From Gemmatimonadaceae bacterium (GTDB lineage Bacteria; Gemmatimonadota; Gemmatimonadetes; Gemmatimonadales; Gemmatimonadaceae), in contig JADYYN010000194.1 in the NCBI GenBank assembly GCA_020853635.1, forward strand, positions 1 to 64,000: a stretch of DNA of 64,000 nucleotides, given 5' to 3'. This document shows positions 11,548 through 49,375 of the stretch, piece after piece. Within the stretch, counting starts at the first letter, position 1. Each line of letters opens with the position of its first letter. The translations under genes were made by a program, and so were the position numbers. The notes beneath the pieces were generated by a model. The model searched no databases, was not told where the DNA came from, and was given only the letters and a program-made list of their open reading frames with translations.

Positions 11548-12026
11548 TCGTTCGTGCGGCGCGACCGAAGGATCACGCTGGGGTGCTCGCGATGAACAAC
11601 GCCGCGACCCCCAACGTGAACGCGCTGGCGCAGCATGAATTCGATTGGATCGTCGAGCGTGCCGCCTACTTCAAGGTGGCCGAGGATGCCGAGGGGCTCG
11701 CGGGGTTCGTGCTCTGCGTGCCTTCGGGGCTCGACTACTGGAGCAACAACTACAAGTGGTTCACGGCGCGGTTCAACGAGTTCTTGTATCTGGACCGCGT
11801 CGTGGTCGCCGCGCGGACCCGCGGGAAGGGTGTCGGCACGCGGTTGTACGATGATCTGCACGCGACGGCGAAGGGCCAGTGGCCGCGCGTGACACTGGAA
11901 GTGAACCTACAACCGCCCAACCCAGGCTCGGTGCGATTCCACGAGCGACTCGGCTATGTGCCGGTGGGGGTGCGGGAGTATGACGAGGGGCGAGCGGTGG
12001 TGCAGATGTATGAACGGCAGATGTGA
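11544..12026 (+). CDS. GNAT family N-acetyltransferase
   Basis: 160 residues with a complete GNAT fold. Motif A reads VVVAARTRGKGVGTRLYDDL (about 91-110) with the acetyl-CoA pyrophosphate loop RTRGKGVG, and motif B is the VNLQPPNPGSVRFHERLGYVPVG region near residues 121-143. GNAT enzymes move an acetyl group from acetyl-CoA to an amine; the acceptor is unknown. Its GTG start overlaps the stop of the VPS10-like gene by 4 bp. The last codons, QM-stop, lie inside a purine-rich intergenic repeat (see 12018-12125). Confidence 0.88.
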   Translation: MIVRAARPKDHAGVLAMNNAATPNVNALAQHEFDWIVERAAYFKVAEDAEGLAGFVLCVPSGLDYWSNNYKWFTARFNEFLYLDRVVVAARTRGKGVGTRLYDDLHATAKGQWPRVTLEVNLQPPNPGSVRFHERLGYVPVGVREYDEGRAVVQMYERQM

Positions 12027-12125
12027 GATGGGAGATGTGAGGAGGCCGCCCGTACGGGCGGCCTTTCTCACATTTCGGTTCTGCATCGCCGTGCTTCACC
12101 TCTCACATCTCCCCTCTCACATCTG
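12018..12125. repeat. Inverted pair of purine-rich repeats enclosing a terminator
   Basis: The plus strand at 12018-12042 begins CAGATGTGAGATGGGAGATG and ends TGAGG. The minus strand at 12125-12099 begins CAGATGTGAGAGGGGAGATG. The arms match over about 25 bases with two differences. A further partial copy lies at 12065-12076. Both convergent genes (GNAT on plus, fabI on minus) take their last codons, Gln-Met-stop, from these arms. A GC-rich palindrome sits between the arms. The core GGGAGATGTGAGA recurs at other sites in this window. Confidence 0.85.
12043..12064. terminator. Bidirectional terminator hairpin between GNAT and fabI
   Basis: A perfect palindrome with 11-bp arms, AGGCCGCCCGT and ACGGGCGGCCT, followed on the plus strand by TT and a pyrimidine stretch. 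It lies between convergent genes, so it can serve both. Confidence 0.75.
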
Positions 12126-13031
12126 CAGTTTCGGCACCGTCGCCCCATCCACCGCCATGCCCATCGCGTGGTAGCCCTTGTCGACGTAGACCGTCGCGCC
12201 GGTGATGCCGCTGGCGAGTGGGGAGCAGAGGAATGCCGTGGCCGCGCCGACTTCTGCGGCGTCGAGCGCCTGCGGGAGTGCGCTGTTGGCCTCGCAGTAG
12301 GTCACCATCGCGCCGATGATGCCGATGGCGCTCGCGGCGCGTGAGGCATAGGGGCCGGCGCTCACGGTGTTCACACGCGCGCCCCATTTGCGACCGGCTT
12401 CGAAGGCCAATACGCGTGTGTCACTCTCGAGTGCGGCCTTTGCGGAGCTCATGCCGCCGCCGTAGCCGGGGATCGCGCGTTCGCTCGCCATGTAGGTGAG
12501 CGACGCGACGGCAGCATTGGGGCGGACCATGGGACCGAGGTGCTGCATCATGCCGATCAGCGAGTACGCACTGGTGCCGATCGCCGCGAGGTAGCCCGCG
12601 CGCGACACCTCGAGCAACGACTTCTTCACTTCAGGGCCATTGGCCAGCGAATGCACGAGGATGTCGAGCGGCTGCTCGCCGAAATCCGCGCGCATGCGCG
12701 CGGCGAGGCCGGCGATGGAGAAGTCCCCGGTGTCCTTGTAGCGCTTGTTCTCGCGGATGTCCGCCGGGGCCTGCTCGAGTGTGTCGAACGCGGCGTCGAG
12801 CGGATAGATCTTCTCGAACGAGAGCAGGGAGCCGTCGGCGAGCTTGCGGGACTCGTCGATCTTCCCGCGTTCGAGGAGGTTGAGGAAGATGTTGAGCGCG
12901 GGGGGCCAGGTCGCGACGCAGACCGTGGCGCCGGCTTCAATCAGGTGCTTGGCGATGGCCCAGCCGAAGCCGTTGTCGTCGGCGACGCCGGCGACGAGGG
13001 CGCGTTTGCCTCGGAGATCGATAGGGAGCAT
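12117..13031 (-). CDS. fabI: Enoyl-[acyl-carrier-protein] reductase, plant-type FabI
   Basis: A 304-residue short-chain dehydrogenase that reduces enoyl-ACP with NAD(P)H in the last step of fatty-acid elongation. The nucleotide-binding region is [13 protein letters not shown] (about 15-27). The catalytic residues are Tyr190 and Lys198, with the second family Tyr at 180. The spacing Y-x7-K (YGGGMSSAK) and a long insert after the second beta strand (about 42-100, with [12 protein letters not shown] and ENKRY) match the plastid ENR of plants and their bacterial relatives rather than Escherichia coli FabI, which is shorter and has Y-x6-K. The gene is single, divergent from the SusC gene and convergent with the GNAT gene. 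Triclosan response cannot be judged from this. Confidence 0.93.
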
Positions 13032-13123
13032 GGCGTGATATGCCCTGTGTGGAAGGTGGAATCAAGGGTGCGGGACAGATTGCGCGAAAAGGGGGAGTAA
13101 ATCACTCCCTCTGTCATCCTGTG

Positions 13124-13153
13124 TTGACGCGCGTAACAGTTCGGTCGTATGAT
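13124..13153 (+). promoter_or_regulatory. Sigma-70-like promoter upstream of the SusC gene
   Basis: TTGACG at 13124-13129 and TATGAT at 13148-13153 are separated by 18 bases. A start near 13160 would give an untranslated leader of roughly 80 bases before the ATG at 13244. The same spacing and -10 hexamer occur before the FKBP gene (55306-55335). Confidence 0.6.
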
Positions 13154-13243
13154 TGGCCCCCCGGCATAAACCGTCGGGGACGTGCGCGGCTCATGGGGCG
13201 CTGCGTACTGCCCACCGATCCCCATACCTCGGTACACCATATC

Positions 13244-16200
13244 ATGAATCATCGAGTTCTCCGGCTGCTCTTGGGCCTGCTCCTCATCGCGGCACCCGCG
13301 ATGGCTCAGGGGCAGAACGTCACCGGCAAGGTGACGTCCGAGCAGGGCACGGCAGTCTCCGGTGTCCAAGTCGTCGTGAAGGGTACGACGACGGGCACCG
13401 TCACCACTGACCAGGGCACCTACAGCATCCGCGCGACCGCGGGCCAGGTGCTGCAGTTCCGCTTGATCGGCTACGCGCCGCTCGAGCGCACTGTCGGCAG
13501 CGAGACGGTGATCAACGTTTCGCTCCGTCGTGTGGCGACGCAGCTCGACGCGAATGTCGTCACCGCCCTCGGCCGTACGGTGAACCAGCGGTCGCTGGGC
13601 ACGGTGCAGCAGACGGTGGTCGGTCCGGAGATCGCGCAGACCCAGCGTGAGAACTTCGTGAATGCGCTGCAGGGGCGCGTCGCCGGCGTCGAAGTGACGA
13701 GCAGCTCCGGTGTCCCGGGTGCGTCGTCGTCGATCACCATCCGCGGCGTGAGTTCGATCTCGAGCTCCAACCAGCCGCTGATGATCGTCGACGGTCTGCC
13801 GCTCGACAACAAGACGTTCAATACCCAGTCACTCGCGTCGGACGCGCCGGGTTCGACCACGGCGTTCTCCAACCGCGGCATCGACTTCACCAACCGCTCG
13901 TCCGACCTCGACCCCGAGGACATCGAGACGCTCGTCGTCCTCAAGGGCCCCGAAGCCTCTGCGCTCTACGGCATCGACGCGGCGAACGGCGCGATCGTGA
14001 TCACGACCAAGCGTGGCAAGCCGGGTCAGGGTGGCTTCGAGTACAGCAACAGCTTCCGCGTCGAAGGCACACGGACCAGCCCCTCGCTGCAGAAGACCTA
14101 CGGTCCGACGACGGCATCGGGTGGATCGCTCGGCGAGTTCCAGTACTTCGGCACGCCGTACGCGGCCAACACCACCTTCTATGACAACGTCGACGGCTTC
14201 TTCCAGACGGCGGTCACGGCGAAGCACAACCTCTCGTTCAGCGGTGCGGCGCCGGACAACCGGATCAACTACCGCGTCGCGTTCTCGTCGGACAATCAGG
14301 AAGGTGTGGTGCCGGGTTCGCTGTATCGCCGGTTGAACATCACCGGGGCGAGCCAGTCGCAGGTGACCAGCTGGCTGCGCACCGACCTGTCGATGGCGTA
14401 TTCGTTCACCGACAACGACCAGGCGTGGAAGGGTGCGAACGGCCCGCTGATCGGCTTGCTGCTCTGGCCGCAGACGGACGACGCCAAGGACTATCTCACG
14501 CCGGCCGGAACGCGCCGTCGCATCACGCTGCTTGCGGGCTCGGCGGAGACGGACAACCCGTACTTCAACGTCGAGAAGAACCGCAACGGCACCACGAACG
14601 GCCGCCTGATCACCAACCTCGGCTTCATCTTGACGCCGTTCAAGTGGGGCGGGCTCCGCACGAACATCGGCCTCGACTCCTACACGTTCGAGAACCAGCT
14701 GGTCCGGCACCCGGAAAGCACGTTCGGGTTCAACACCAACGGCATCCTCGACGAAGCGACCGATGTGGTGCGCAACCTGAACTCGCAGACGGTGCTCAAC
14801 ATCAACCGGCATGCGATCACCGACGACATCGGCATCACCGGCCTGGTGGGCAACGCGATCTCCGACTCCAAGTCGACGACGACCGGTGTGAAGGGACAGG
14901 ACTTCCTCGATCCCAACTTCGTCTCGGTCAACAACACGCTGCTCCGCACCAACCGCACGGTCATCGCGCAGCGCCGCTTGGTGAGCCTCTTCGGCTCGGC
15001 GACGGTGGACTACAAGGACTACCTCTTCGTGACCGTCTCCGGTCGTAACGACTGGACCTCCACCATCCCGGTGGAACGCAACTCGTTCTTCTACCCCGCC
15101 ATCAACAGCAGCTTCGTCTTCTCCGACGCCTTCCCGGCGGTCGCGAAGTACGTGACCGGCAAGCTGCGCGCGGGCTACGCCGAAGTGGGCAAGGATGCGC
15201 GGCCGTATGCGTATCGTCCGTCGCTCGAGTTCAAGACCACGTCGTACGGCGGCTACGGATACGGATTCACCGGTCCCAATCTCAACCTGCGTCCCGAGTT
15301 CGCGCGCTCCTATGAGTTCGGCGCCGACCTCGGCTTCCTCGACGATCGGCTCGGCGTCGATGTGACCGTGTACCGCAAGCAGACCAAGGACCAGATCGTC
15401 AACGACATCCGCGGGTCGTACGCGACCGGCTTCATCCTCTTCAACCTGAACGGCGCGGTCACGCGCAACACGGGTTTCGAGATGACGCTGCGCGGCACGC
15501 CGGTCGAGCGTCCGGACTTCTCGTGGGACGTGTTGGTGAACTTCGACCGCGCCCGCGGCAAGGTGCTCGAGCTGCCGAACGACCTGCCGGAGTCGTACGT
15601 CTCCGACACCTGGCTCTACGGAAACATCCGCAACGGCACCACGCCGGGTCTCTCGACGCGCTCGCTCACCGGCTTGTTCTACCTCCGCAACAACGAAGGC
15701 GAGCTGTTGATCGATCCCACCACCGGCCTGCCGCTTCGTTCTGCGTCGTTCATCGATGCCGGCTACGACCGCCAGCCCGACTTCACGGTGGGTGTGACGA
15801 ACACGTTCTCGTACAAGAAGTTCTCGCTCAGCTTCCTCGTGGACTTCCGGAAGGGCGGCGACATCCTCAACGCCACCGAGCACTTCCTCACCACGCGTGG
15901 CCTGAGCAAGCGCACGCTCGACCGCGAAGAGCCGCGGGTGATCCCCGGCGTGTTGCGTGATGGCCGCGAGAACACCGCGACGCCGACGCGCAACAATATC
16001 GTCGTGATCCCGGCGGTGCAGACGTCGTTCTACACGAACATGAGCGAAGAGCTCTTCATCGAGAAGGACATCAACTGGGTCCGCCTGCGCGACATCACGC
16101 TGCGCTACGAGATCCCGGGGGCCTGGCTCAAGGCGCGCACGGCGAGCGTGTTCGTGACGGGCACCGACCTGTTCCTGCTCACCAACTACTCCGGCCTCGA

Positions 16201-16315
16201 CCCGATCGTGAACGGCAACACCGCGGCGGTGGGTGGTTCGGGTGGTCAGGGCATCGACTACGGCAACTTCCCCATCCCCCGCGGCGTCAGCTTCGGCCTC
16301 AAGGTGGGGTTCTGA
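13244..16315 (+). CDS. SusC/RagA-family TonB-dependent outer-membrane receptor
   Basis: 1023 residues. The ATG at 13244 starts a signal peptide ending in PAMAQ. A CarboxypepD_reg-like domain (about 25-100, with VTGKVTSEQGTAVSGVQVVV and GTTTGTVTTDQGTYSI) precedes the TonB plug (about 120-240, with IMIVDGLPLDN-like and LDPEDIETLVVLKGPEASALYG motifs ending in ITTKRG). A large beta-barrel follows and ends in Phe (GVSFGLKVGF), as expected for Bam-dependent insertion. SusC proteins import oligosaccharides, peptides or other nutrients using TonB energy with a SusD lipoprotein as lid. The SusD gene follows after 2 bp. The substrate cannot be read from this cluster because no glycosidase is present; peptides are possible. 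Confidence 0.95.
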   Translation: MNHRVLRLLLGLLLIAAPAMAQGQNVTGKVTSEQGTAVSGVQVVVKGTTTGTVTTDQGTYSIRATAGQVLQFRLIGYAPLERTVGSETVINVSLRRVATQLDANVVTALGRTVNQRSLGTVQQTVVGPEIAQTQRENFVNALQGRVAGVEVTSSSGVPGASSSITIRGVSSISSSNQPLMIVDGLPLDNKTFNTQSLASDAPGSTTAFSNRGIDFTNRSSDLDPEDIETLVVLKGPEASALYGIDAANGAIVITTKRGKPGQGGFEYSNSFRVEGTRTSPSLQKTYGPTTASGGSLGEFQYFGTPYAANTTFYDNVDGFFQTAVTAKHNLSFSGAAPDNRINYRVAFSSDNQEGVVPGSLYRRLNITGASQSQVTSWLRTDLSMAYSFTDNDQAWKGANGPLIGLLLWPQTDDAKDYLTPAGTRRRITLLAGSAETDNPYFNVEKNRNGTTNGRLITNLGFILTPFKWGGLRTNIGLDSYTFENQLVRHPESTFGFNTNGILDEATDVVRNLNSQTVLNINRHAITDDIGITGLVGNAISDSKSTTTGVKGQDFLDPNFVSVNNTLLRTNRTVIAQRRLVSLFGSATVDYKDYLFVTVSGRNDWTSTIPVERNSFFYPAINSSFVFSDAFPAVAKYVTGKLRAGYAEVGKDARPYAYRPSLEFKTTSYGGYGYGFTGPNLNLRPEFARSYEFGADLGFLDDRLGVDVTVYRKQTKDQIVNDIRGSYATGFILFNLNGAVTRNTGFEMTLRGTPVERPDFSWDVLVNFDRARGKVLELPNDLPESYVSDTWLYGNIRNGTTPGLSTRSLTGLFYLRNNEGELLIDPTTGLPLRSASFIDAGYDRQPDFTVGVTNTFSYKKFSLSFLVDFRKGGDILNATEHFLTTRGLSKRTLDREEPRVIPGVLRDGRENTATPTRNNIVVIPAVQTSFYTNMSEELFIEKDINWVRLRDITLRYEIPGAWLKARTASVFVTGTDLFLLTNYSGLDPIVNGNTAAVGGSGGQGIDYGNFPIPRGVSFGLKVGF

Positions 16316-16317
16316 TC

Positions 16318-17922
16318 ATGCGCACACACACTTCGATCACCCAACGTCCGATGCGACTGCTTCGCAACGTCATCCTCGCCACGGGACTGCTGGTCTCGAC
16401 CGCGGCCTGCGAGGACTTCCTCGATGTGAACGAGAACCCCAACGGCCCGCAGGTGGTGTCGGCGAATCTGTATCTCGCGCCGATGCTGCATTGGATGGCC
16501 ACGTCCCCCGCGTTCGACGGCCGCTTCGTGGGCCGGTACACGCAGCAGTGGTTCCTCACGGCGACCACCCTGAGCACCTGGGACCGGATGGGCTACGACC
16601 CGTCCAGCGACAACGGCGCGCAGCAGTGGCGCGACGTGTACTGGTCATTCGGCCAGAACCTCGTCGACATGATGAACAAGTCGCGCGAGGAGGAGCGCTG
16701 GGACCTGCTGGGCGTCGGCCACGTGCTCAAGGCCTGGGGCTGGCAGGTGCTGACCGACCTCCACGGCGAGATCATCGTCCGTGAGGCGATCAACCAGAGC
16801 ACCTTCACCTTCAACTACGACACGCAGGAGTACGCGTACCAGGCGGTGCGCGCCCATCACGATACCGCCATCACGCTCCTGCAGCGGACGGACGGCGCGG
16901 TCGACGCGGCCTACATGGGGCGCACCGACAAGATCTACAACGGTGACCGCACCAAGTGGCTCAAATTCGCGAACGGCCTGCTCGCCATTCATCTGAATCA
17001 CTACTCCAACAAGGCGTCGTACGATCCGGCGGCGGTCATTGCGGCGGTCGATGCGTCCTTCGTGGGCAATGTCGACGATGCGCTGCTTGCGTACCCGGGC
17101 GCGGTGAACGACGAGATCAACTTCCTCGGTCGCACCCGCGGCAACTTCAACGCGTACCGCCAGACGAACTTCGTGCTCGGTCTCATGAACGGCACGGCGT
17201 TCGGTGGGGTGGTCGATCCGCGCATGAGCCGCATGCTCGCGCCCTCGCCCGACGGACAGTATCGCGGCTTGGACATCAATACGGCGAACTTCGGTGCGCT
17301 CACCACCGCGCAGCAGCCGAACAACTTCTGGGGCTATGCGGGTGCCGGCGGCGTCAACCTCCCGGGGCGCTATCTGTTCGCGAACCGGGCGCGGATGCCC
17401 ATCATGACGTACTCGCAGTTGCAGTTCGTGAAGGCGGAAGCCGCGTACCGGAACGGCGATCTGCCGCTCGCGCTCGCGGCCTACACCAACGGTGTGTCCT
17501 CGCACATCGACTTCGTCAACGCGCGCAACCAGGACGACGGGCAGTCGCCGACGCAGATCTCCGGGGCCGAGAAGACGGCGTTCCTCGCGGCGCCTGAGAT
17601 CATCCCGGCCACCGCGGCGGGCATGACGCTCACGCGGATCATGTCGCAGAAGTACATCGCGCAGTGGGCCTGGGGGCACAACGAAGTGTGGATGGACCTG
17701 CGCCGGTACAACTACACGGATGTCGACCCGGCGAGTGGCCAGCAGGTCGTCCCGGGCTTCACGCCGCCGGTCAACCTCTATCCCGACAACGGCGGCGCGA
17801 TCGCCCAGCGTATCCGCCCGCGTTTCAACTCCGAGTATGTGTGGAATCGCCCGGGTCTCGACGCCATCGGCGGACTCGCGCTGAACTACCACACCGTGCC
17901 GCTCTGGATCACCCAACCGTAA
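16318..17922 (+). CDS. SusD/RagB-like nutrient-binding outer-membrane lipoprotein
   Basis: 534 residues with a lipoprotein signal ending in STAAC followed by EDFLDVNENPNGP, the typical start of the SusD-like superfamily. The helical TPR-like fold is suggested by repeated aromatic helices and by the conserved C-terminal pattern with IMSQKYIAQWAWGHNEVWMDLRRYNY (about 440-465). SusD proteins cover the SusC barrel at the cell surface and capture the nutrient. It lies directly behind the SusC gene and 7 bp before the DUF4397 gene, so the three form one transcript. Confidence 0.93.
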   Translation: MRTHTSITQRPMRLLRNVILATGLLVSTAACEDFLDVNENPNGPQVVSANLYLAPMLHWMATSPAFDGRFVGRYTQQWFLTATTLSTWDRMGYDPSSDNGAQQWRDVYWSFGQNLVDMMNKSREEERWDLLGVGHVLKAWGWQVLTDLHGEIIVREAINQSTFTFNYDTQEYAYQAVRAHHDTAITLLQRTDGAVDAAYMGRTDKIYNGDRTKWLKFANGLLAIHLNHYSNKASYDPAAVIAAVDASFVGNVDDALLAYPGAVNDEINFLGRTRGNFNAYRQTNFVLGLMNGTAFGGVVDPRMSRMLAPSPDGQYRGLDINTANFGALTTAQQPNNFWGYAGAGGVNLPGRYLFANRARMPIMTYSQLQFVKAEAAYRNGDLPLALAAYTNGVSSHIDFVNARNQDDGQSPTQISGAEKTAFLAAPEIIPATAAGMTLTRIMSQKYIAQWAWGHNEVWMDLRRYNYTDVDPASGQQVVPGFTPPVNLYPDNGGAIAQRIRPRFNSEYVWNRPGLDAIGGLALNYHTVPLWITQP

Positions 17923-17929
17923 CCCGACC

Positions 17930-18700: not shown

Positions 18701-18720
18701 TTTCGGCGTACCGCAGTGTA

Positions 18721-18757: not shown

Positions 18758-18802
18758 CATTTCGGGATTCGCCGCGCGAGCGCGGTGTTCGCGAGGGGTT
18801 TG

Positions 18803-21890: not shown

Positions 21891-21898
21891 GGACGGGC

Positions 21899-21930
21899 AG
21901 ATGGGAGAGGGGAGCAGGGAGATGCGAGAA
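21899..21930. repeat. Purine-rich intergenic repeat copy
   Basis: The plus strand reads CAGATGGGAGAGGGGAGCAG and continues GGAGATGCGAGAA, a diverged copy of the GATGGGAGATGTGAGA family. It lies between the divergent GNAT (minus) and PAP2 (plus) genes, where it would lie in the upstream region of both. Confidence 0.65.
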
Positions 21931-26440: not shown

Positions 26441-26469
26441 GATGGGAGATGGTGGAAGCGAGATGGTGG
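26441..26469. repeat. Purine-rich intergenic repeat copy
   Basis: The plus strand reads GATGGGAGATGGTGGAAGCG and continues AGATGGTGG. It shares GATGGGAGAT with the repeat family and fills the gap between the AstE-like gene and the ccdA-like gene. On the mRNA of those minus-strand genes it is pyrimidine-rich and precedes the TTG start. Confidence 0.6.
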
Positions 26470-27740: not shown

Positions 27741-27795
27741 GGATGTGAGAGGTGGCGATCCGTCGTGCCTCTCACTTCTCACATCTCCCATCTCC
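27741..27795. repeat. Inverted purine/pyrimidine repeat in the ettA leader
   Basis: GGATGTGAGAGG at 27741-27752 faces CCTCTCAC and CTCACATC on the same strand at 27768-27785, so the leader RNA could fold. The minus strand at 27795-27768 reads GGAGATGGGAGATGTGAGAA and continues GTGAGAGG, a full copy of the repeat family. The pyrimidine-rich side ends 12 bases before the GTG of ettA. Confidence 0.75.
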
Positions 27796-27806
27796 GATCT
27801 CGATCC

Positions 27807-29480
27807 GTGGCCCCACAGTTCATCTATGTGATGAAGGCGCTCAAGAAGGTGATCCCACCTTCGCGCATCATCCTCGACGATATCTGGCTGTCGTTCTACC
27901 CCGGCGCCAAGATCGGCGTCCTCGGCCCCAACGGCGCCGGCAAGTCGTCGCTGCTGAAGATCATGGCCGGCGTCGACACCGATTTCCAAGGCGAAGCCTG
28001 GGCCCACAAAGGCACCCGCGTCGGCTATCTGCCGCAGGAGCCGCAGCTCGACGAGTCGCTCGATGTGCGCGGCAATGTCGAACTCGCCGTGAAGGCGCAG
28101 CGCGACCTGCTCAAGCGCTTCGAAGCCATCTCGGCCAAGTTCGCCGAGCCGATGAGCGATGACGAGATGAACGCGCTCATCGAGGAGCAGGGCAAGGTGC
28201 AGGAGCGCATCGACGCCCAGGACCTCTGGAACCTCGACAACAAGATCGAGGTGGCCATGGACGCGCTGCGCCTGCCGCCCGGCGACGCCGGCGTGAAGAA
28301 CCTCTCCGGTGGCGAGAAGCGTCGCGTGGCACTGTGCCGCGTGTTGCTCGAAGAGCCGGACATGCTGCTGCTCGACGAACCCACCAACCACCTCGACGCC
28401 GAGTCGGTAGCATGGTTGGAGCACTATCTCGAGAGCTTCCCCGGCACCGTGGTCGCGATCACGCACGATCGCTACTTCCTCGACAACGTCGCTAAGTGGA
28501 TCCTCGAGCTCGACCGCGGGCGCGGCGTGCCGTACGAGGGCAACTACTCCGGCTGGCTCGACCAGAAGCGCACGCGTCTCGCGCAGGAAGAGAAGATCGC
28601 GTCGGCCCGACAGCGGTCACTCGAGCGCGAGTTGGAGTGGGTGCGCATGGCGCCGCGCGCACGGCAGGCCAAGAGCAAGGCACGACTGCAGAAGTACGAG
28701 GAGCTGGCAAGCGAGGCGCAGCAGGAGAAGATCGCCGCGAACGAGATCATCATCCCGCCGGCGCCGCGTCTGGGCAACGACGTGGTGATCGCGAAGGGGC
28801 TCACCAAGGGCTTCGGTGACCGCCTGTTGATCGACAAGCTCGACTTCTCGCTGCCGCGCGGTGGCATCGTGGGCGTGATTGGTCCCAACGGCGCGGGCAA
28901 GACGACGCTGTTCCGCATGATCACCGGCCATGAGCAGCCCGATGGCGGCAAGCTCACGGTGGGTGAGACGGTGAAGCTCGCGTATGTGGATCAGTCGCGC
29001 ACGCTCGACCCGAACAAGACCGCGTGGGAGGAGATCTCGGGTGGTAACGAGTCTATCCTCGTGGGCAAGAAGGAGATGAACACGCGCGCGTACCTCTCGA
29101 GCTTCAACTTCAAGGGCACCGACCAGCAGAAGAAGGTCGGTATCCTCTCGGGCGGTGAGCGCAACCGCCTGCATCTGGCGAAGACCGTCATGAGCGGCGG
29201 CAACCTGCTGCTGCTCGACGAACCGACGAACGACCTCGACGTCGACACGCTGCGCGCGCTCGAAGAAGCGTTGGTGGACTACTCCGGCTGCGCCGTTGTG
29301 ATCTCACACGATCGTTGGTTCCTCGATCGTCTGGCCACGCACATCCTCGCGTTCGAGGGTGACTCCGAGGTCGTGTGGTTCGAGGGCAACTATCAGGCGT
29401 ACATCGAGGATCTGCGCCGACGGAAGGGCGCGGACGCGGATCAGCCGCATCGGATCAAGTTCAAGCCGTTGGTGCGGTAA
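27807..29480 (+). CDS. ettA: ABC-F translation factor EttA (energy-dependent translational throttle)
   Basis: 557 residues, close to the 555 of Escherichia coli EttA. Two ABC ATPase domains are present. The first has [17 protein letters not shown] and [10 protein letters not shown]; the second has [17 protein letters not shown] and [10 protein letters not shown]. The first domain carries the arm insertion (about 95-140), and the linker is the basic, helical P-site tRNA-interacting motif (about 250-320). No membrane domain exists, so it is a cytosolic factor that binds the ribosomal E site and couples translation to the ATP/ADP ratio. The GTG at 27807 aligns with the family's N-terminus ([12 protein letters not shown]). 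Confidence 0.95.
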
Positions 29481-29530
29481 GGGCAGGTGGGAGGTGTGAG
29501 GTGTGAGGGGGGCGCCCGTGCGGGCGCCCC
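29481..29530 (+). repeat. 50-bp direct repeat, copy 1 (starts right after the ettA stop)
   Basis: Begins at the base after TAA with GGGCAGGTGGGAGGTGTGAG and ends in the GC hairpin. It is identical over 50 bases to 31039-31088. The first part, GGGAGGTGTGAGG, is a variant of the purine-rich repeat core. Confidence 0.9.
29509..29530 (+). terminator. Rho-independent-like terminator after ettA
   Basis: 10-bp perfect arms GGGGCGCCCG and CGGGCGCCCC around TG, followed by TCTT. It is part of the 50-bp repeat. Confidence 0.7.
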
Positions 29531-29601: not shown

Positions 29602-31038
29602 ATGCAGCGAGATGTGCAGGCCGATGATCGGCGATGGGGGCGAGTGCGCCGTGCGATGATCGCGCGGCTTCTCGTGGTGATCCTGGCTTTGCTGCTAGTC
29701 GTGACCTCCTCGGGATCGCTCCGCGCGCAGGGCACGATCCGCGGCGTCGTGCTCGACTCGCTCTTCGCGCGTGGGCCGCTCGCGGGCGCGACGGTGATGC
29801 TGCAGGGCGCTCCGCAGACCGCGGTGAGCGACAAGTTCGGGCGCTTCGTGCTGCGTGATGTCCCCGCCGGCCGCTATCAAGTCGCCTTTTTCCATCCGAT
29901 CCTTGATTCGCTCGAAATCTCCGCAGCGCCCATCGCCGTCGACGTGCGCGATGGCGCAGCGGTGCCCGTGACGCTCGGCATGCCATCGGTCGCACGAGTG
30001 GCCGCGGCGCTCTGCGGTACCGGGCTCGAGACGTCGACCGGTGTGGTGTTCGGAGTGGTGCGCGACGCCGAACGTGCGATGCCGCTCGACAGCGTGGAGA
30101 TCGGCGTGCACTGGTATGTCGCGACGTTCGAGCAAGGCGCACTGCGCGAGTCGCGTGCCGCGGTACGGACGCGCTCAGCCAGTGACGGACGTTATGTGCT
30201 CTGCGGAGTCCCCAACGATGTGGCGACCACCCTCGTCGCAGAGCGCGGTGCGCAGCGGACCGGTGACCTCCAGATCTCGCTCGCGGATGGTGACCTGGCA
30301 CGTCGCGACCTGTTGGTCAGCCTCAGCGACACCGCTGCGCGTCGCACACCGCTGATCATCGTCGACACACTCGCGCCCACCGCACCACCCGGCAGCGCGC
30401 GTTTGCGTGTGCGGGTGGTCGACGCGCGTGGGCGCGTCGTGAGCGGTGCGCTCGTCGGCGTCCGTGGGTCCCGTGCGAGCGCCACGACCGACGCGGACGG
30501 TCGCGTGTTCCTCACGCGGTTGCCTAGCGGATCGCAGTCGTTGCTGGTGCGGAAGGTCGGTCAAGAGCCGGTCCAGCAGGTGGTCGGTCTGCGTCCGGGC
30601 ACGGACGTGGAGGCGACGGTGCTCCTCGACCGTCGCATCTCGGTACTTCCGACCGTTGCGGTGACCGGACGCGCCGTCAACAAGACCCGACTCGATCAGG
30701 ACATCGATCGTCGCGTGAAGGCCGGCTTCGGCTACCTGTACGACGAGAAGGCGGTGCGGCGCGCGACAAGCTCACTCTCCTTCTGGGCGACGGTACCCGG
30801 TGTGCGCGTCGTCAACGACGGCTTCGATGCGCTGCCGATCATGCGCGACGGACGTGGGGACATGTGCGTGCCCAACATCCTGTTCGACGGCACGTTGATC
30901 TCCAACATCGGTGCGTGGGAGCTTCGGACGTATCTGGTCGGGAGCAGACGGATGGAGGTGTATCCGTACGCAGGCACCCGACCGGCGGAGTTCCCGCAGG
31001 GGATCGACTGTGGGGTGATCGCGATCTGGTCGCGGTAG
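29602..31038 (+). CDS. Exported protein with carboxypeptidase-regulatory-like domains and a TonB-plug-like end, no barrel
   Basis: 478 residues from the ATG at 29602; an ATG at 29656, directly before the signal peptide, is an alternative. After the signal (ending SLRAQ) come beta-sandwich domains of the CarboxypepD_reg type (GTIRGVVLDS, FGRFVLRDVPAGRYQV; STGVVFGVVRDAER; RLRVRVVDARGRVVSGALVGV with TDADGRVFLTRLPSG). The last 130 residues resemble a TonB-receptor plug: an LFDGTLI segment, then RRMEVYPYAGTRPAEF and a CGVIAIWSR end. A normal receptor would continue into a 500-residue barrel, which is missing. The gene is flanked by perfect 50-bp repeats. It may be a periplasmic or surface protein that uses the plug as a binding module. 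Confidence 0.8.
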   Translation: MQRDVQADDRRWGRVRRAMIARLLVVILALLLVVTSSGSLRAQGTIRGVVLDSLFARGPLAGATVMLQGAPQTAVSDKFGRFVLRDVPAGRYQVAFFHPILDSLEISAAPIAVDVRDGAAVPVTLGMPSVARVAAALCGTGLETSTGVVFGVVRDAERAMPLDSVEIGVHWYVATFEQGALRESRAAVRTRSASDGRYVLCGVPNDVATTLVAERGAQRTGDLQISLADGDLARRDLLVSLSDTAARRTPLIIVDTLAPTAPPGSARLRVRVVDARGRVVSGALVGVRGSRASATTDADGRVFLTRLPSGSQSLLVRKVGQEPVQQVVGLRPGTDVEATVLLDRRISVLPTVAVTGRAVNKTRLDQDIDRRVKAGFGYLYDEKAVRRATSSLSFWATVPGVRVVNDGFDALPIMRDGRGDMCVPNILFDGTLISNIGAWELRTYLVGSRRMEVYPYAGTRPAEFPQGIDCGVIAIWSR

Positions 31039-31088
31039 GGGCAGGTGGGAGGTGTGAGGTGTGAGGGGGGCGCCCGTGCGGGCGCCCC
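31039..31088 (+). repeat. 50-bp direct repeat, copy 2 (starts right after the plug-protein stop)
   Basis: Identical to 29481-29530 and again starting at the first base after a stop codon (TAG at 31036-31038). Both copies end in the same terminator-like hairpin. Confidence 0.9.
31067..31088 (+). terminator. Rho-independent-like terminator after the plug-protein gene
   Basis: Same 10-bp stem as at 29509-29530, followed by CTTCT. Confidence 0.7.
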
Positions 31089-40514: not shown

Positions 40515-40519
40515 CCCCA

Positions 40520-42332: not shown

Positions 42333-42404
42333 GTTGACACTCGGAATGGTGGGAGCGGATCGGGGACGCGAGACAGACTCACGTCGTGGGCAGGACGTTA
42401 ACGC

Positions 42405-43040
42405 ATGACTCCGCGCGAGGACAGAGCGACCCCGTTGCCACCCGAGAGCATCGCGGAAGTTCCGGCGACAGCGTCCCGTGGCCTACGCACGCGCGTGTGG
42501 CAGTGGCTCCGACCGCGTCTCACCCTCCTGAACCTCCTCACGCTGGCGGTGCTCGCGTATGCGACGCCGATCCTGCTGCCGCATCTCGGTGCCCTTTTCG
42601 GAGTCCGTTCGGGGCCGGACATGGTGCCGCGGTATTCATATGTAGCGCTCGACGGCGCACTGGTCGACGCGGACACGCTGCGGGGGCGTGTCGTCCTCGT
42701 GAACTTCTGGGCGACGTGGTGCCTGCCCTGTCGGGTGGAGATGCCGGCACTGGAGTCGATGTACCAGCGCCATCGCGAGGCCGGCTTCGTGATCGTGGGG
42801 CTCGCGGTGGACCAGGCGGCGACCGAGAAGGTCGCGGCCTTCGTCCGCGAGCGCGGGATCACGTATCCCATCGTGCACGTGGGGCGCGAAGCGGAGCGCG
42901 CGTTCGGAGGGGTGCGCGGGTATCCGACGTCGTTCCTGCTCGACCGCAGCGGGCGTGTGCGGCATGTGGTGCAGGGGCCGATCGGCGCGGTGTCGCTGGA
43001 AGCGGCGGTGCGGCGCGAGCTGGGCCGCACGACCCCGTAG
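42405..43040 (+). CDS. Membrane-anchored TlpA/ResA-like thioredoxin
   Basis: 211 residues. A basic cytoplasmic N-terminus (about 1-38) leads to one membrane segment (about 40-60), placing the thioredoxin domain outside. The redox centre is WCLPC (Cys106, Cys109), the FWATWCLPCRVEMPAL block is typical of TlpA/ResA, and GYPTSFLLD holds the cis-Pro. It probably reduces periplasmic disulfides, for example in cytochrome c maturation, using the DsbD/CcdA relay. It precedes the efflux operon by 111 bp but seems to have its own transcript. Confidence 0.9.
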   Translation: MTPREDRATPLPPESIAEVPATASRGLRTRVWQWLRPRLTLLNLLTLAVLAYATPILLPHLGALFGVRSGPDMVPRYSYVALDGALVDADTLRGRVVLVNFWATWCLPCRVEMPALESMYQRHREAGFVIVGLAVDQAATEKVAAFVRERGITYPIVHVGREAERAFGGVRGYPTSFLLDRSGRVRHVVQGPIGAVSLEAAVRRELGRTTP

Positions 43041-43091
43041 CGCCGGCCGGCTAGGCGGACGAGCCCAGAGCGCCCCTTGTGGGGAACGAAA

Positions 43092-43143
43092 CCTCTTGTA
43101 CATTACTATATCGTTATATACCCACATATAACTCCCTCAAGGA
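43092..43143 (+). promoter_or_regulatory. AT-rich regulatory region of the efflux operon
   Basis: A 40-bp AT-rich island before the TolC gene contains TTGTAC at 43096-43101 and several TATAT/ATATA stretches. TATAT at 43107-43111-region and ATATA at 43116-43120 flank CGTT as a small palindrome that could be an operator. AAGGA at 43139-43143 is the likely ribosome-binding site for the GTG at 43152. The exact -35/-10 pair is not clear. Confidence 0.4.
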
Positions 43144-43151
43144 ACCCGTCC

Positions 43152-44573: not shown

Positions 44574-44579
44574 CCTGCC

Positions 44580-45614
44580 ATGACCAATTCCTCATTGAAG
44601 TCGCTCCTCACGCTCACGATGGTGCTCGCCGTTGCCGCTTGCGGTGCTGGCGATGCACATGAACAGCCCGCACCGACCACCACGCCGGCCTCCGGCGCAC
44701 CGACGTTCGCCGTGCTCGACACGCTGCTGCCGGCGGTCACCTCCGCGGACGGCGTCGCGACGCCGATGCGAGAAGCGACGCTCTCCACCAAGCTCATGGC
44801 CGCCGTCACCGAGGTCCTCGTGCAGGAAGGGGACGTGGTGCGTGCGGGACAACTGCTCGTGCGGCTCGACTCGCGCGACCTGAGCGCCAAGAGCGAACAA
44901 GTGGCCGCGTCGGTCGCGGCAGCCGAGGCCATGTATGCCCAGGCCAACGCGCACGCCGCACGCATGCGGGCGCTCTTCGCGGACAGCGCCGCGCCCAAGG
45001 CGATGCTCGAAGCTGCGGAAGCCTCGCTCGCGCAAGCCGCGTCGGGACTGCGTGGCGCGAAGGCCGCCGGCGCTGAACTCACTGCCGTGGAGAGTTATGC
45101 CGAGGTCCGGGCGCCGTTCGCGGGCCGCGTGACGCAGCGTTTCGTGGATGTCGGTGCCTTCGCCGCGCCTGGCGCGCCGCTGGTGTCGGTGCAGGACGCG
45201 TCGTCGTTGCGTGTGACGGCACACGTGGCACCGGAGCAGGCGCGCGGATTGCGCGCCGGGCAACGCGTCGCGGTGAGCATCGAAGGGGTCGATGCGAGCG
45301 CGACGATCGAAGGTGTCGTGCCCACGATGGGCAGTTTGTATGCGGTGAACGCGATCGTCGCCAACCGCGACGGCAGTCACTTGGCGGGGAGTGCTGCGGC
45401 GCTGCAGTTGCCCACCGGGACTCACCGCGTGCTGGCAATCCCGACCGACGCGCTGATCACCGAAGGGGACATGGTCGGCGTGGTGGTGCGCGTCGGCGAC
45501 ACGGAAGCGCGTCGCTGGATCCGCACGGGTGTGCGTGTCGGGGGGTTTGTCGAAGTCACCGCTGGCCTGAAGGCCGGCGACCTCGTGGTGCGTCGCACCA
45601 CAGGAGCGCGCTGA
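44580..45614 (+). CDS. RND efflux periplasmic adaptor (membrane fusion protein), lipoprotein
   Basis: 344 residues with lipobox VAAC (Cys21), so it is lipid-anchored. The biotinyl-lipoyl half-motif VTEVLVQEGDVVRAGQLLVRLDS (about 78-100), a short helical hairpin (about 104-160), and the return half YAEVRAPFAGRVTQRFVDVGA (about 174-194) are all present, followed by the beta-barrel and membrane-proximal domains (RVGGFVEVTAGLKAGDLVV). It links the RND pump to TolC. Confidence 0.93.
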   Translation: MTNSSLKSLLTLTMVLAVAACGAGDAHEQPAPTTTPASGAPTFAVLDTLLPAVTSADGVATPMREATLSTKLMAAVTEVLVQEGDVVRAGQLLVRLDSRDLSAKSEQVAASVAAAEAMYAQANAHAARMRALFADSAAPKAMLEAAEASLAQAASGLRGAKAAGAELTAVESYAEVRAPFAGRVTQRFVDVGAFAAPGAPLVSVQDASSLRVTAHVAPEQARGLRAGQRVAVSIEGVDASATIEGVVPTMGSLYAVNAIVANRDGSHLAGSAAALQLPTGTHRVLAIPTDALITEGDMVGVVVRVGDTEARRWIRTGVRVGGFVEVTAGLKAGDLVVRRTTGAR

Positions 45615-45615
45615 G

Positions 45616-48600
45616 ATGGGCATCTCCGGACGGATCGCGCAGGCCTTCCTGCGCTCGAAGCTCACGCCGCTGGTGACCATCGCGTCACTCGCGGTGGGGC
45701 TGATCGGGATCATCGCGACCCCTCGAGAGGAGGAGCCGCAGATCTCGGTGCCCATGATCGACGTGATCGCCGCACTGCCGGGCGCCGGACCGAGTGAGGT
45801 CGAGCAGCGCATCGCGCGACCGATCGAGCGGCGCATGCAGGAGATTCCTGGCGTGGACCACGTGTACACGATGAGCGGCGATGGGTTCGCGCTCGTGACC
45901 GTGCGGTTCGCCGTGGGCGAGGACCAGGAACGCAGCATCACCAAAGTGCACGCCAAGCTCGCGGCGGCGATGGATGAAGCGCCACCCGGCGCGATGCCAC
46001 CGATGGTGAAGCCGCACTCGATCGACGATGTGCCGATCCTCGCACTCACGTTGCACAGCGCGACCAGCGACGCGAACACGCTGCGTCAGATCGCGACGCA
46101 TCTCGATGAAGAGATCCGCACCGTGCCGGAGGTCGCCGAGACCTTCATCACGGGCGGGCAGCCGCGTCAGGTGGAGGTGTTGCTCGATCCGGCGCGACTG
46201 ACCGCGCGGGGCGTGACTCCCGGCGAGGTCGCGATGGCGCTGGCCGGCGCGAATGCCCGACTGCAGGCCGGCGAGGTCGCGGTCGGTGGTGATGTGGTGC
46301 GTGTGGATGTTGGGGCCGCGCTCACCAGTGCCGCGGATGTCGGTGCGGTGATCGTGAGCGCGCGTGGTGGCGTGCCGGTCTCGGTGCGGGACATCGCGAC
46401 GGTGCGTGAGGGGTTCGGCGAGGCCGTCACCTATGTGTCGCATCAGGACGCGACCACGACTGGCTCCGCCGCAGTGACGCTCTCGGTAGCCAAGCGCCAA
46501 GGTGCGAACGCGACGGCCGTGAGTCATGCAGTGCTGGAGCGGGTCGAGCAGGCCCGTGCACGCCTTCTGCCTGGCGACGTGAAGCTGGACGTCACACGCG
46601 ACTACGGCGAGACGGCCGGCGAGAAGGCCGACGAACTCATCCTGCACCTGATCATCGCCACGCTCTCGGTCACCGCGCTGATCTGGTTGTTCCTCGGCTG
46701 GCGCGAAGCGTTGGTGGTGCTGGTCGCCGTGCCGGTGACCTTGGCGCTCACGCTGTTCGTGTACTACGCGCTCGGCTACACGCTCAACCGCATCACGCTG
46801 TTCGCGCTGATCTTCTCCATCGGTATCCTGGTGGACGACGCGATCGTGGTGGTGGAGAACATCTACCGCCACTTGAAGATGGGTGACCGCTCGCCCGAGG
46901 TGGCGAGCGTCGAAGCCGTCGACGAAGTCGGCAACCCGACCATCCTCGCGACGTTCACCGTGATCGCCGCGATCCTGCCGATGGCATTCGTGAGCGGCAT
47001 GATGGGCCCGTACATGCGGCCGATCCCGATCGGTGCGTCGGTGGCGATGCTGGCCTCGCTGGCCGTGGCGTTCATCGTGACGCCGTACCTCGCGTATCGC
47101 CTACTCAAGAGTCACGTCGCACCGACCACACATCCGCATGACCGCGCGCACGAGGAAGAAGAGGAGACGAAGTTCGGTCGCTTCTACTCGCAGCTCATGA
47201 GCGGGCTCATGGAGGGCAACCGTCGCCGCAAGATCTTCTACGGCGGCGTGGTCATGCTGCTGCTCGGCTCGGTCGCGCTCGTGGGCATCCGCGCGGTGCA
47301 GGTGAAGATGCTGCCGTTCGACAACAAGAGTGAGTTCCAAGTGGTGCTCGATCTGCCGGAAGGCACGACGCTCGAGACCACCACGGCCGCAGCGGAGGAG
47401 ATCGCGCGTTACCTGCTCACCGTGCCCGAAGTGCGGAGCACGGAGGTGTACGCAGGCACGTCCGCGCCGTTCAACTTCAACGGGCTCGTGCGCCACTACT
47501 TCCTGCGTCGCGGCGCGAACGTCGCCGACGTGCAAGTGAACCTCGCGGCGAAGCACGAGCGCGATCGACAGAGTCATGCGATCGCAGTCGCAGTGCGCCC
47601 CGGTGTGGTGGCGATCGCCGAGAAGTACGGCGCGTCGGCGAAGGTGGCCGAGATCCCGCCGGGACCGCCGGTGCTCTCGACGCTGGTGGCGGAGGTGTAC
47701 GCCGGCGATGACTCCACGCGTCTCGCGGCCGCGATGCGCGTGCGTGAGGTGTTCCTTGCGACGCCGGGTGTGGTGGATGTGGATTGGACGGTGGAGGACG
47801 CGCAGACCCAGCGGAGCTTCCGCGTCGATCGTGCACGGGTGGCTGCAGCCGGTGCGAACGTGGAGCAGGTGACGCGCACGCTTTATCTCGCGCTCTCGGG
47901 CGCACCCGCCGGCATGATCGCATCGCCGACCGCGCGCGAGACCATGCCGATCGTGCCGCGCCTGCCGCAGAGTGCGCGTACGTCGGTGGAGGCGCTGCTG
48001 CGCATCCCGGTGGCGACCATGCAGGGCCCGCAGCCGCTCGCGCGGTTCGTGCGTGTGGTGGACGGCGTGCGCGAGAGCGCACGGGTACGGAAGGATCAGC
48101 GTCCGTCGATCTACGTGACCGGTGATGTCGCGGACGAGGTGGAGGCTCCGGTGTACGCGATCATGGCGATGAACGCCGCGCTCGACACCATCCGCGTGAA
48201 CGGTGCTGAGATCAAGCGCTACAACGCCGTGCCGCCGGAGCGGCTCGATGAGGTCGCGGTGAAGTGGGACGGCGAATGGCGGGTGACCATCGAGGTGTTC
48301 CGCGACCTCGGCATCGCCTTCGCCATCGTGCTGTTGCTCATCTATGTGCTGGTGGTCGGCTGGTTCCAGTCGTTCACCATCCCGCTGGTGATCATGGCCC
48401 CGATCCCGCTCACCTTGGTGGGCATCCTGCCCGGCCATGCGCTCACCGGCGCGTTCTTCACGGCCACGTCGATGATCGGCATGATCGCACTCGCGGGCAT
48501 CATCGTGCGCAACTCGATCCTGCTGGTGGACTTCATTCAGCTCGCCGAGGCCCGCGGACGCCCGTTGAAGGAAGCCGTGCTTGAAGCCGGCGCCGTGCGC

Positions 48601-48798
48601 TTCCGTCCGATCGCACTCACCGCGGCCGCGGTAGTGGTCGGCGGGTTGGTGATGGTGCTCGATCCGATCTTCCAGGGCCTCGCGGTCGCGCTGATGAGCG
48701 GCGCGGTGGTGGCGACCCTGCTCACCATGGTGGTCGTGCCGCTGCTCTACTGGGAGCTGCGCCGCCGCCAGATCGCTGCCGAGGAGGCCGCACGATGA
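45616..48798 (+). CDS. AcrB-like RND efflux transporter
   Basis: 1060 residues with the classical RND plan: one N-terminal helix, a large periplasmic domain, a helix bundle, a second periplasmic domain and a second bundle. The proton-relay Asp pair is present in GILVDDAIVVVEN (about 405-417), and the second bundle has GIIVRNSILLVDFIQ. The start LTPLVTIASLAVGLIGIIATPREEEPQI matches the hydrophobe/amphiphile branch. Substrates cannot be told. The stop overlaps the start of a P-II-like gene by 4 bp. Confidence 0.95.
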   Translation: MGISGRIAQAFLRSKLTPLVTIASLAVGLIGIIATPREEEPQISVPMIDVIAALPGAGPSEVEQRIARPIERRMQEIPGVDHVYTMSGDGFALVTVRFAVGEDQERSITKVHAKLAAAMDEAPPGAMPPMVKPHSIDDVPILALTLHSATSDANTLRQIATHLDEEIRTVPEVAETFITGGQPRQVEVLLDPARLTARGVTPGEVAMALAGANARLQAGEVAVGGDVVRVDVGAALTSAADVGAVIVSARGGVPVSVRDIATVREGFGEAVTYVSHQDATTTGSAAVTLSVAKRQGANATAVSHAVLERVEQARARLLPGDVKLDVTRDYGETAGEKADELILHLIIATLSVTALIWLFLGWREALVVLVAVPVTLALTLFVYYALGYTLNRITLFALIFSIGILVDDAIVVVENIYRHLKMGDRSPEVASVEAVDEVGNPTILATFTVIAAILPMAFVSGMMGPYMRPIPIGASVAMLASLAVAFIVTPYLAYRLLKSHVAPTTHPHDRAHEEEEETKFGRFYSQLMSGLMEGNRRRKIFYGGVVMLLLGSVALVGIRAVQVKMLPFDNKSEFQVVLDLPEGTTLETTTAAAEEIARYLLTVPEVRSTEVYAGTSAPFNFNGLVRHYFLRRGANVADVQVNLAAKHERDRQSHAIAVAVRPGVVAIAEKYGASAKVAEIPPGPPVLSTLVAEVYAGDDSTRLAAAMRVREVFLATPGVVDVDWTVEDAQTQRSFRVDRARVAAAGANVEQVTRTLYLALSGAPAGMIASPTARETMPIVPRLPQSARTSVEALLRIPVATMQGPQPLARFVRVVDGVRESARVRKDQRPSIYVTGDVADEVEAPVYAIMAMNAALDTIRVNGAEIKRYNAVPPERLDEVAVKWDGEWRVTIEVFRDLGIAFAIVLLLIYVLVVGWFQSFTIPLVIMAPIPLTLVGILPGHALTGAFFTATSMIGMIALAGIIVRNSILLVDFIQLAEARGRPLKEAVLEAGAVRFRPIALTAAAVVVGGLVMVLDPIFQGLAVALMSGAVVATLLTMVVVPLLYWELRRRQIAAEEAAR

Positions 48799-49085
48799 AA
48801 CTCTTCCTATTGATGTATGGCGGGCCGTCGCCGGAGCGCGTGGGCGCGATCCTCGAGCGTCACGACATCCATGAATACACGACGTTCGAAGGTGGCAAGG
48901 GCGTGGGGCGCACGGGCAAACGCGAAGGCAGTCGTGCGTGGCCCGGCGAGACGACGATGGTCATCTCCATCGTCCCGCGCGAGCGCGTGGACGCCACGGT
49001 GGCCGCGCTGGAACAGGAAGCCGAGGCGTTGCCGCCCGGTGAGCGCCTGCACGTCGCGGTGCTCGAAACCGAACGATTCTTCTAG
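48795..49085 (+). CDS. P-II-like transporter-associated protein (PG0541 type)
   Basis: 96 residues, cytoplasmic. The small ferredoxin-like fold (MKLFLLMYGG, then ERVGAILERHDIHEYTTFEGGKGVGRTG, then TTMVISIVPRERVDATVAAL) resembles P-II signalling proteins and the PG0541 family that is encoded next to RND pump genes. Such proteins may sense a nucleotide or metal and regulate the transporter. It overlaps the RND gene by 4 bp, fixing its association with the pump. Confidence 0.82.
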   Translation: MKLFLLMYGGPSPERVGAILERHDIHEYTTFEGGKGVGRTGKREGSRAWPGETTMVISIVPRERVDATVAALEQEAEALPPGERLHVAVLETERFF

Positions 49086-49098
49086 GAGACCACACCCC

Positions 49099-49317
49099 AT
49101 GTGTGATGATCGTATTATTCGACGTATCGCCGGACTGTTCGTGATGGCCTCCGTGGCGCTCGGCTACTTCGTGCACCCGGGTTGGTTCGCCTTCACGGCG
49201 TTTGTCGGGTTCAATCTGGTGCAATCGAGCTTCACGGCGTTCTGTCCACTGGAGAAGATCCTCGGTGCGGTCGGCCTGTTCGGTTGCCGCGCACCGGTCA
49301 CCCGGGGGAAGGGGTGA
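49099..49317 (+). CDS. DUF2892 small inner-membrane protein
   Basis: 72 residues. Two membrane helices (about 8-25 and 30-46) with the family features RIIRRIAGLFVMASVALGY, HPGWFAFTAFVGFNLVQSSFTAFCPLEKIL and a conserved Cys in FCP. DUF2892 matches the membrane part of YgaP-like rhodanese proteins, and such short forms often accompany sulfur- or redox-related genes. Two Cys (Cys49 and Cys63) lie at the membrane face. It follows the P-II-like gene by 13 bp. Confidence 0.85.
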   Translation: MCDDRIIRRIAGLFVMASVALGYFVHPGWFAFTAFVGFNLVQSSFTAFCPLEKILGAVGLFGCRAPVTRGKG

Positions 49318-49340
49318 GGCTGCTCCCGCATCGCCGTGTC

Positions 49341-49375
49341 CCCCTCTCCCATCTCACATCTCCCCTCTGCCCCTA
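49341..49375. repeat. Purine-rich repeat copy in the OsmC leader
   Basis: On the minus strand, 49371-49341 carries GGGGAGATGTGAGATGGGAG, a close copy of the repeat family; the plus strand is pyrimidine-rich and ends 3 bases before the OsmC ATG. It therefore occupies the place of the ribosome-binding site. Confidence 0.75.

Follow-up and report, generated by a model that had tools for sequence, protein, structure and literature searches.

Contig JADYYN010000194.1 of a Gemmatimonadaceae bacterium (GenBank assembly GCA_020853635.1) carries, between its genes, a dispersed family of short G-rich repeats. We analysed positions 1 to 64,000 of its forward strand, a stretch hereafter called the window, together with the genome to which it belongs and those of its relatives, and we describe here both the repeats and a small gene, of the PF05635 (23S_rRNA_IVP) family, with which repeats of this kind are associated. 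An initial annotation of the window had named eight copies, and the motif is indeed present at all eight places. When the window is searched with GATGGGAGATGTGAGA, allowing up to three mismatches, 17 matches are found versus 0.45 expected, and none of 100 shuffled sequences reaches 17. The 13-nt core proposed in that annotation was a misreading of the unit. The real unit is a 7-nt word repeated in tandem, and the core represents two registers of the heptamer array. At the sites read, the arrangement is a head-to-tail (GATGKGA)n, mostly of four units, with the variant GGTGKGA at 29485 and 31043. The arrays, and the hairpins that accompany some of them, are the following:

12020..12040, + strand: heptamer array, three perfect units, left arm of an inverted pair; ends the gene whose last nucleotide is 12026
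12043..12064, + strand: terminator-like GC hairpin, immediately inward of the left array
12096..12123, - strand: heptamer array, four units, right arm of the pair; ends the minus-strand gene 12117-13031
21900..21929, + strand: short array, two units plus degenerate units
26441..26469, + strand: degenerate array, the weakest copy
27742..27755, + strand: left arm of an inverted pair in an intergenic leader; the pair folds (z -3.9)
27770..27799, - strand: right arm, about four units, its end 7 nt ahead of the start codon at 27807
29485..29508, + strand: heptamer array (GGTGKGA), 4 nt past the TAA ending at 29480
29509..29530, + strand: GC hairpin adjoining the array
31043..31066, + strand: heptamer array, near-identical to the 29485 copy, 4 nt past the TAG ending at 31038
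31067..31088, + strand: GC hairpin adjoining the array
49340..49367, - strand: repeat copy

Of the window arrays, five were scored for their position relative to called genes, and all five lie outside them; the arrays at 12020 and 12096 themselves provide the TGA stop codon. What had been taken for one copy at 27741-27795 does contain the motif, but actually consists of a pair of inverted arms, 27742-27755 (+) and 27770-27799 (-); a second such pair occupies 12018-12125. The 26441-26469 copy is present, though weak and degenerate. The RNA of 12010-12134 folds into an array:array stem capped by the GC hairpin (z -10.6). An Rfam scan of the window gave no match to a known structured RNA. An array with its hairpin is found twice, 1.56 kb apart and at two different genes (29474-29530 and 31032-31088); the two copies are 98% identical across 57 nt, hairpin included, which bespeaks a recent duplication. 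In addition, a word resembling GGCGATGCGGGAG recurs just inside arrays of this genome (49318-49339 in the window, near 4229 in L039 and near 4281 in L049), and is perhaps a second repeat or part of an element core.

Layout of the arrays across genomes

The repeats form a genuine genome-wide intergenic family. In the genome of the window (G000; 4.17 Mb, 84% complete), GAKGKGAGAKGKGA 14-mers number 204 (99+105), versus 13 (4+9) for the pattern read backwards. Among 40 relatives, the count of GATGKGA 14-mers ranges from 0 to 160, the highest being that of G010, which belongs to the same genus. Enrichment at gene ends, GC hairpins on some copies and an anatomy resembling that of repetitive extragenic palindromic (REP) elements, all anticipated by the initial annotation, are borne out. 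The anatomy was studied on 92 arrays, taken from the window and from 20 stretches each of G000 and G010 that were chosen around matches to the motif. Exactly four units are present in 60 of these arrays. They fall into 63 clusters, and all 29 clusters made of two arrays are convergent, the G-rich strands facing each other at a distance of 5-93 nt. For the 72 arrays located outside genes, a gene border is found no more than 15 nt from the outer edge in 45 cases (30 stops and 15 starts), versus 9 for the inner edge; the other 20 arrays are inside genes according to the gene calling used, and we suspect that these calls are on the wrong strand. A hairpin of at least 9 bp occurs within 55 nt on the inner side of 17% of the 92 arrays, versus 4% of 246 random intergenic windows. 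The earlier description of one strand as nearly all purine was overstated: the mean purine content of the 92 arrays is 0.85 (range 0.71-0.96), with one or two T in most units and none in GAGGGGA.

In sister species, these gene borders carry different words. At an intergenic site bordered by genes that we take to be HppA-like and YchF-like, the heptamer is GATGKGA in G010 and G000, GATGTRA in G012, GACKTGA in G005, GTYRTGA in G016, of the GCTGAAG type in G013 and G015 and of the GGGTCAG type in G001, while in G006 and G014 no array is visible by eye. When intergenic DNA was sampled in 12 genus genomes, period 7 (with 14) was the strongest period, or shared first place, in eight (G000, G010, G012, G005, G003, G013, G001 and G016, in the last of which period 8 came close); in this survey the rows of G000 and G010 contain motif-chosen stretches and that of G006 is spoilt by runs of N. 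The signal is weak in G015, and there is none in G011 and G014. Since the words differ at the same borders, what is kept is the tandem inverted layout, not the sequence. For the same reason, triplex or G-quadruplex (G4) formation does not explain the family, and the polypurine character that had been put forward as able to form triplexes is not its essence, as GTYRTGA, GCTGAAG and GACKTGA occupy these same sites.

Intergenic location, inverted pairs and high copy number would also be expected of REP elements, or of bacterial interspersed mosaic elements (BIMEs), mobilised by a REP-associated tyrosine transposase (RAYT, a Y1 transposase), a link that the initial annotation had envisaged. This is extremely unlikely here, because no match to PF01797 was found in G000, at 84% completeness, and the units are tandem heptamers. 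The gene that is associated with the repeats belongs to PF05635.

A partner gene of the PF05635 family

The open reading frame (ORF) found between two arrays at the HppA-like/YchF-like site is a member of PF05635, the S23 four-helix-bundle family of 23S rRNA intervening-sequence proteins (IVPs). This family has 21 matches across 11 of the 17 genus genomes, and it is present in 20 of 24 family and order relatives, with up to 12 matches each. There are three in G000, on contigs other than that of the window, and the copy on C105 is bracketed by GATGGGA arrays. Comparison of 12 PF05635 proteins with a genome collection (84,980 species) yielded 54 loci, from records labelled Gemmatimonadota, Acidobacteriota, Chloroflexota, Planctomycetota, Bacteroidota, Fibrobacter, Actinomycetota, SAR324, Sedimenticola, ANME-1 archaeon and others. 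At these loci, 54 period-7 runs lie within 350 bp of PF05635, versus 6 for all other periods from 4 to 12, and the density of period-7 runs is 1.50 per kb within that distance versus 0.113 per kb elsewhere. A period-7 run is found on either side of PF05635 in 32 of 50 loci (four of the 54 having too little flank), versus 26 of 268 when the other 270-900 bp genes of these loci are considered (odds ratio 16.5, p 8e-16). The inverted-repeat score between the two flanks is likewise higher for PF05635 than for other genes (Mann-Whitney p 1.6e-20). Within a locus the two arms pair together, but they do not pair with arms taken from elsewhere (median score 14.5 vs 9), and the flanks of different PF05635 loci pair no better than controls.

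In a set of 129 PF05635 loci, from which 8 of the 54 had been dropped as judged duplicates of genus genomes and in which a few more overlaps are possible, a period-7 array is present within 350 bp in 77 loci and on both sides in 35, and some array of period 6-10 in 92. The arrays themselves comprise 129 of period 7, versus 49 of all other periods from 4 to 12. Period 7 is found at 14 of 21 loci in the genus, 29 of 46 in other records, 24 of 50 in family and order relatives and, with a strict detector, 10 of the 12 plasmids analysed out of 20 PLSDB records with a PF05635 match, the flanks in L215 having period 8. A strict period of seven was ruled out as a rule by family and order relatives that use 6, 8, 9 or 10; flanks with one of these periods are found in L225, L229, L231, L232, L234, L242, L245, L310, L318 and L320. 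One metagenome-assembled genome labelled Klebsiella pneumoniae, possibly wrongly, has four PF05635 loci (L176, L179, L200 and L204), three of which share a heptamer end.

The AlphaFold2 model of a PF05635 protein (predicted local distance difference test, pLDDT, 88) finds its nearest solved folds in 2gsc (XCC0516 of Xanthomonas campestris) and 2rld, then in Avd of diversity-generating retroelements (DGRs). PMC4990558 describes XCC0516 as a homopentameric ring and gives no known function for the S23/IVP family. In seven pairs of PF05635 genes, the ratio of nonsynonymous to synonymous change (pN/pS) is 0.08-0.40, with high pS, and the gene looks to be under purifying selection. Avd (4dwl, 8ub7) has the same four-helix-bundle fold as PF05635. 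Unlike in DGRs, however, the reverse transcriptase family PF00078 is absent from 16 of the 17 genus genomes, G000 included. As only G007 has matches, telomerase-like or DGR-like reverse transcription was rejected as the source of the heptamers.

These data also bear on the proposal that the arrays are heptameric simple repeats, born by polymerase slippage and kept because they form G-quadruplexes or triplexes. Published heptamer repeats show a four-unit preference and a gene-border position that would agree with it (PMC4692102), and 16 of our 92 arrays contain a G4 motif of four G3 tracts. However, the other 76 arrays lack this motif; GTYRTGA, GCTGAAG, TAACTGA and AAAAGCT, which have no G3 tract, show a similar layout; and the same layout with linkage to PF05635 is already seen in families that are not G-rich. 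Slippage, moreover, predicts neither inverted pairing, nor PF05635 between the arms, nor words shared genome-wide. We consider this origin very unlikely.

Whole units at orthologous sites, and words shared within a genome

A unit is present in one sequence and absent from another at five sites on cyanobacterial plasmids and at three places that distinguish G013 from G014; a target duplication comes from one of these sites. At site A, L209 (Trichormus) has a 428-bp insert that is missing from L288 (Nostoc linckia), the flanks being 98% identical. A 5-bp duplication, GTAAT, contains the TAA stop of the upstream gene, which puts the beginning of the array at the stop codon. Site A is also empty in L289 (Aulosira, 97.6%). 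At sites B, D, E and F, also on plasmids, the unit is absent from relatives with 85-95% identity, less cleanly than at site A. Over 40 kb of synteny between G013 and G014, which are 90-91% identical there, the internal indels of at least 30 nt are three such elements. All three are in G013 only and one has a PF05635 gene; G014 has no PF05635 match.

On plasmids, cas, nrd or tra genes enclose the array-flanked PF05635 genes, the neighbours of some being cas6/cas4, cas10/cmr3 and nrdB/nrdA. PF05635 is listed among the genes of cas loci in PMC3936711, but the members located between cas genes look like insertions. On the cyanobacterial plasmids L206, L212 and L215, PF05635 is located between cas genes with tandem arrays at its flanks. 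In L293 (Dolichospermum), a long inverted-repeat insert, GTAGGTTGGGTT...AACCCAACCTAC, stands between cas6 and cas4 at the place of the PF05635 element. On an Azospirillum plasmid (L211), a 23S rRNA gene, identified as such by Rfam, contains an IVP ORF that is flanked by inverted RGACRGA words, these having been recognized by eye.

Dispersed arrays resemble the PF05635 flanks of their own genome. The mean value for 6-mers shared between the two is 0.305 within a genome versus 0.023 with other genomes (permutation p 5e-5, 13 genomes). In this test, G000 was represented by the window and several genomes by part of their PF05635 loci; G013 was lost, having no dispersed arrays beyond 1.5 kb that passed the filters, and G010 was omitted, its stretches being motif-chosen. 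The two also occur together. In 26 genomes, from which G000 and G010 were excluded, and after removal of runs near PF05635 genes and of GC-only runs, the 20 genomes with PF05635 have 62 period-7 runs in 1010 kb, versus 2 in 395 kb for the six genomes without it (Mann-Whitney p 0.0035). In G005 (L100, L101 and L104), there is a second dispersed heptamer family, GACGGAT, unlike both PF05635 flanks found there.

Arrays far outnumber PF05635 in G000 (204 14-mers vs 3 matches), as they would if they had been there beforehand and simply served PF05635 elements as favoured targets for insertion. However, the empty homologue of site A has no array, which means that arrays and ORF were gained or lost together, and the arms of one locus pair mutually, not across loci. 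We therefore find this order of events unlikely, if somewhat less so than slippage.

A more serious alternative, compatible with the reading that we prefer, is that the arrays are gene-border regulatory elements, selected as transcription or translation punctuation whatever their origin; stems for ribonuclease III (RNase III), terminators, or sites for a ring-shaped RNA-binding protein, possibly the IVP, are candidates for such a role. The outer edges close to gene borders, the excess of inner hairpins, the strong fold of 12010-12134 and the retention of arrays at orthologous sites where the heptamer changes are all in keeping with this. Against it stand the absence of arrays from orthologous sites of relatives, the lack of any period-7 run in 80 kb of G014, and the array-flanked PF05635 genes between plasmid cas, nrd or tra genes. 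We hold it tentatively, as a real possibility but not the favoured one.

PF05635 is associated with the arrays across phyla, flanking and dispersed arrays share heptamers genome by genome, and orthologous sites either have or lack the whole unit. The repeats are thus probably the ends of small mobile elements that resemble 23S rRNA intervening sequences (IVSs), mostly in the form of ORF-less or decayed copies. A full element would have some four heptamers in tandem, followed by a small PF05635/S23 (IVP) ORF and then by the same array inverted, and the copies in the window, which have no ORF, would be inverted pairs or single ends, perhaps decayed. We infer that each element moves as a whole, including in the genome of the window, and that the IVP may recognize its cognate array, as DNA or as RNA. 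By analogy with 23S rRNA IVSs, transcripts would fold by array-array pairing, and the long stem would be cut by RNase III, which would make insertion beside a stop codon tolerable. Insertion at stop codons, of which one case was seen, together with purging from genes, would account for arrays hugging gene borders.

Several observations weigh against these mobile elements. The target duplication was measured at site A only. At that site, L290 has a left array and, by eye, an apparent N-terminal PF05635 fragment; this could be what is left of an insertion, or it could mean that sites now empty have lost theirs by precise excision, so that an "empty" site may not be an ancestral one. Site C (cas6-IVP-cas4) was discarded as an empty-site pair, its partner L293 holding a different insert. 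The difference between G013 and G014 could be a gain or a loss, and G014 is the smaller genome. At the HppA-YchF site, PF05635 looks vertically inherited in the genus while the heptamer changes, which simple transposition does not explain, and the tight placement at stops and starts could reflect a selected function. Moreover, 37 of the 129 PF05635 loci have no array of period 6-10 within 350 bp, and the other periods used by some relatives mean that seven is not obligatory. At the GGGAATC locus of G018, a genome of the same family considered below, the array was detected on one side only, with a trace by eye on the other. The dispersed arrays of G018 and G021 (2 of 13 genomes) are not best matched to their own PF05635 flanks. 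Counted as genomes with at least one run, the co-occurrence is borderline (16 of 20 vs 2 of 6, Fisher p 0.051). G007, which is 77% complete, has 34 GATGKGA matches (control 7) and no PF05635 match, while PF05635 is present in G006, with no period-7 run in 46 kb, and in G020 and G025 (8 and 12 matches), with none in 40 kb each. Finally, we know of no catalytic activity for PF05635.

Published heptamer repeats and 23S rRNA intervening sequences

REP/RAYT systems and miniature inverted-repeat transposable elements (MITEs) combine ORF-less inverted-repeat copies with a gene bracketed by the same repeats. The elements described here differ from them in that no Y1 gene was found in G000 and the ends are tandem heptamer arrays.

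The initial annotation knew of no named family for these repeats. This holds for GATGKGA itself in the literature searched, but published heptamer repeats have nearly the same anatomy, namely the GGGAATC and GGGGA(C/T)T repeats of Xanthomonas and Nostoc (Rehm et al. 2015, PMC4692102), G4 formation having been proposed for GGGNATC. Those repeats, too, are tandem heptamers, mostly intergenic and with a preference for four units, placed in sense after stops or in antisense before starts and forming convergent pairs (70 in X. campestris, Xcc) (PMC4692102). Our arrays share with this class the heptamer with its four-unit preference and the border and convergent layout. They depart from it in that their word, GATGKGA, is not GGGNATC, and in that 16 of 92 have a G4 motif. 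The text of Rehm et al. consulted here names no partner gene and presents the repeats as generally not tied to mobile elements (PMC4692102). In G018, there are 208 GGGAATC 14-mers versus 0 for the control, and a GGGAATC array lies about 110 bp upstream of a PF05635 match. This GGGAATC family, together with the solved structure of XCC0516, would provide the link to Xanthomonas.

A known parallel for a full element is the 23S rRNA IVS, for example that of Coxiella, in which complementary ends form a 28-bp stem and an S23/IVP ORF lies inside (Warrier et al. 2016, PMC4990558). At its 5' end there are tandem GACAGAT heptamers whose number varies between strains (PMC4990558). Complementary stem-forming ends are common to both, as seen in the 12018-12125 pair and in PF05635 flanks. 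The S23 ORF lies inside in the C105 copy of G000, as in the IVS, whereas the window copies have no ORF between their arms. Unlike the IVS, the elements described here are intergenic, numerous and mostly ORF-less; one plasmid relative, L211, is located in 23S rRNA.

No statement of a general link between heptamer repeats and S23 was found in the portion of the open-access literature consulted. On present evidence, the arguments are evenly balanced as to whether PF05635/S23 defines a phylum-crossing class of mobile elements, the ends of which would be inverted tandem words of 6-10 nt, usually 7, proper to each lineage. Its pentameric ring, without known nuclease or reverse transcriptase, would recognize the array and co-evolve with it, and the heptamers of Xanthomonas, Nostoc, Beggiatoaceae and others as well as the 23S IVSs would all be its products. 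Each of two long-standing puzzles would gain a testable partner: bacterial heptamer repeats, noted for years with no mechanism, and S23/IVP proteins, with structures and no known function. Insertion would also offer a reason for the presence of S23 genes in cas operons and rRNA genes.

The pairing of arrays with PF05635 would link to the S23 family not only the GGGAATC repeats but also the TAACTGA direct repeats of Beggiatoaceae, cyanobacteria and Bacteroidetes, for which a role as the site of a translational regulator has been proposed (MacGregor 2015, PMC4679880). Like our arrays, these are intergenic tandem heptamers near gene starts with a patchy distribution across phyla (PMC4679880); unlike them, they use a different word. 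None of the terms "S23", "helix bundle" and "intervening" is used in the main text of PMC4679880. In a Sedimenticola genome, the TAACTGA 14-mer occurs 37 times versus 0 for the control, and the left flank of its PF05635 gene has TCAGTTA words.

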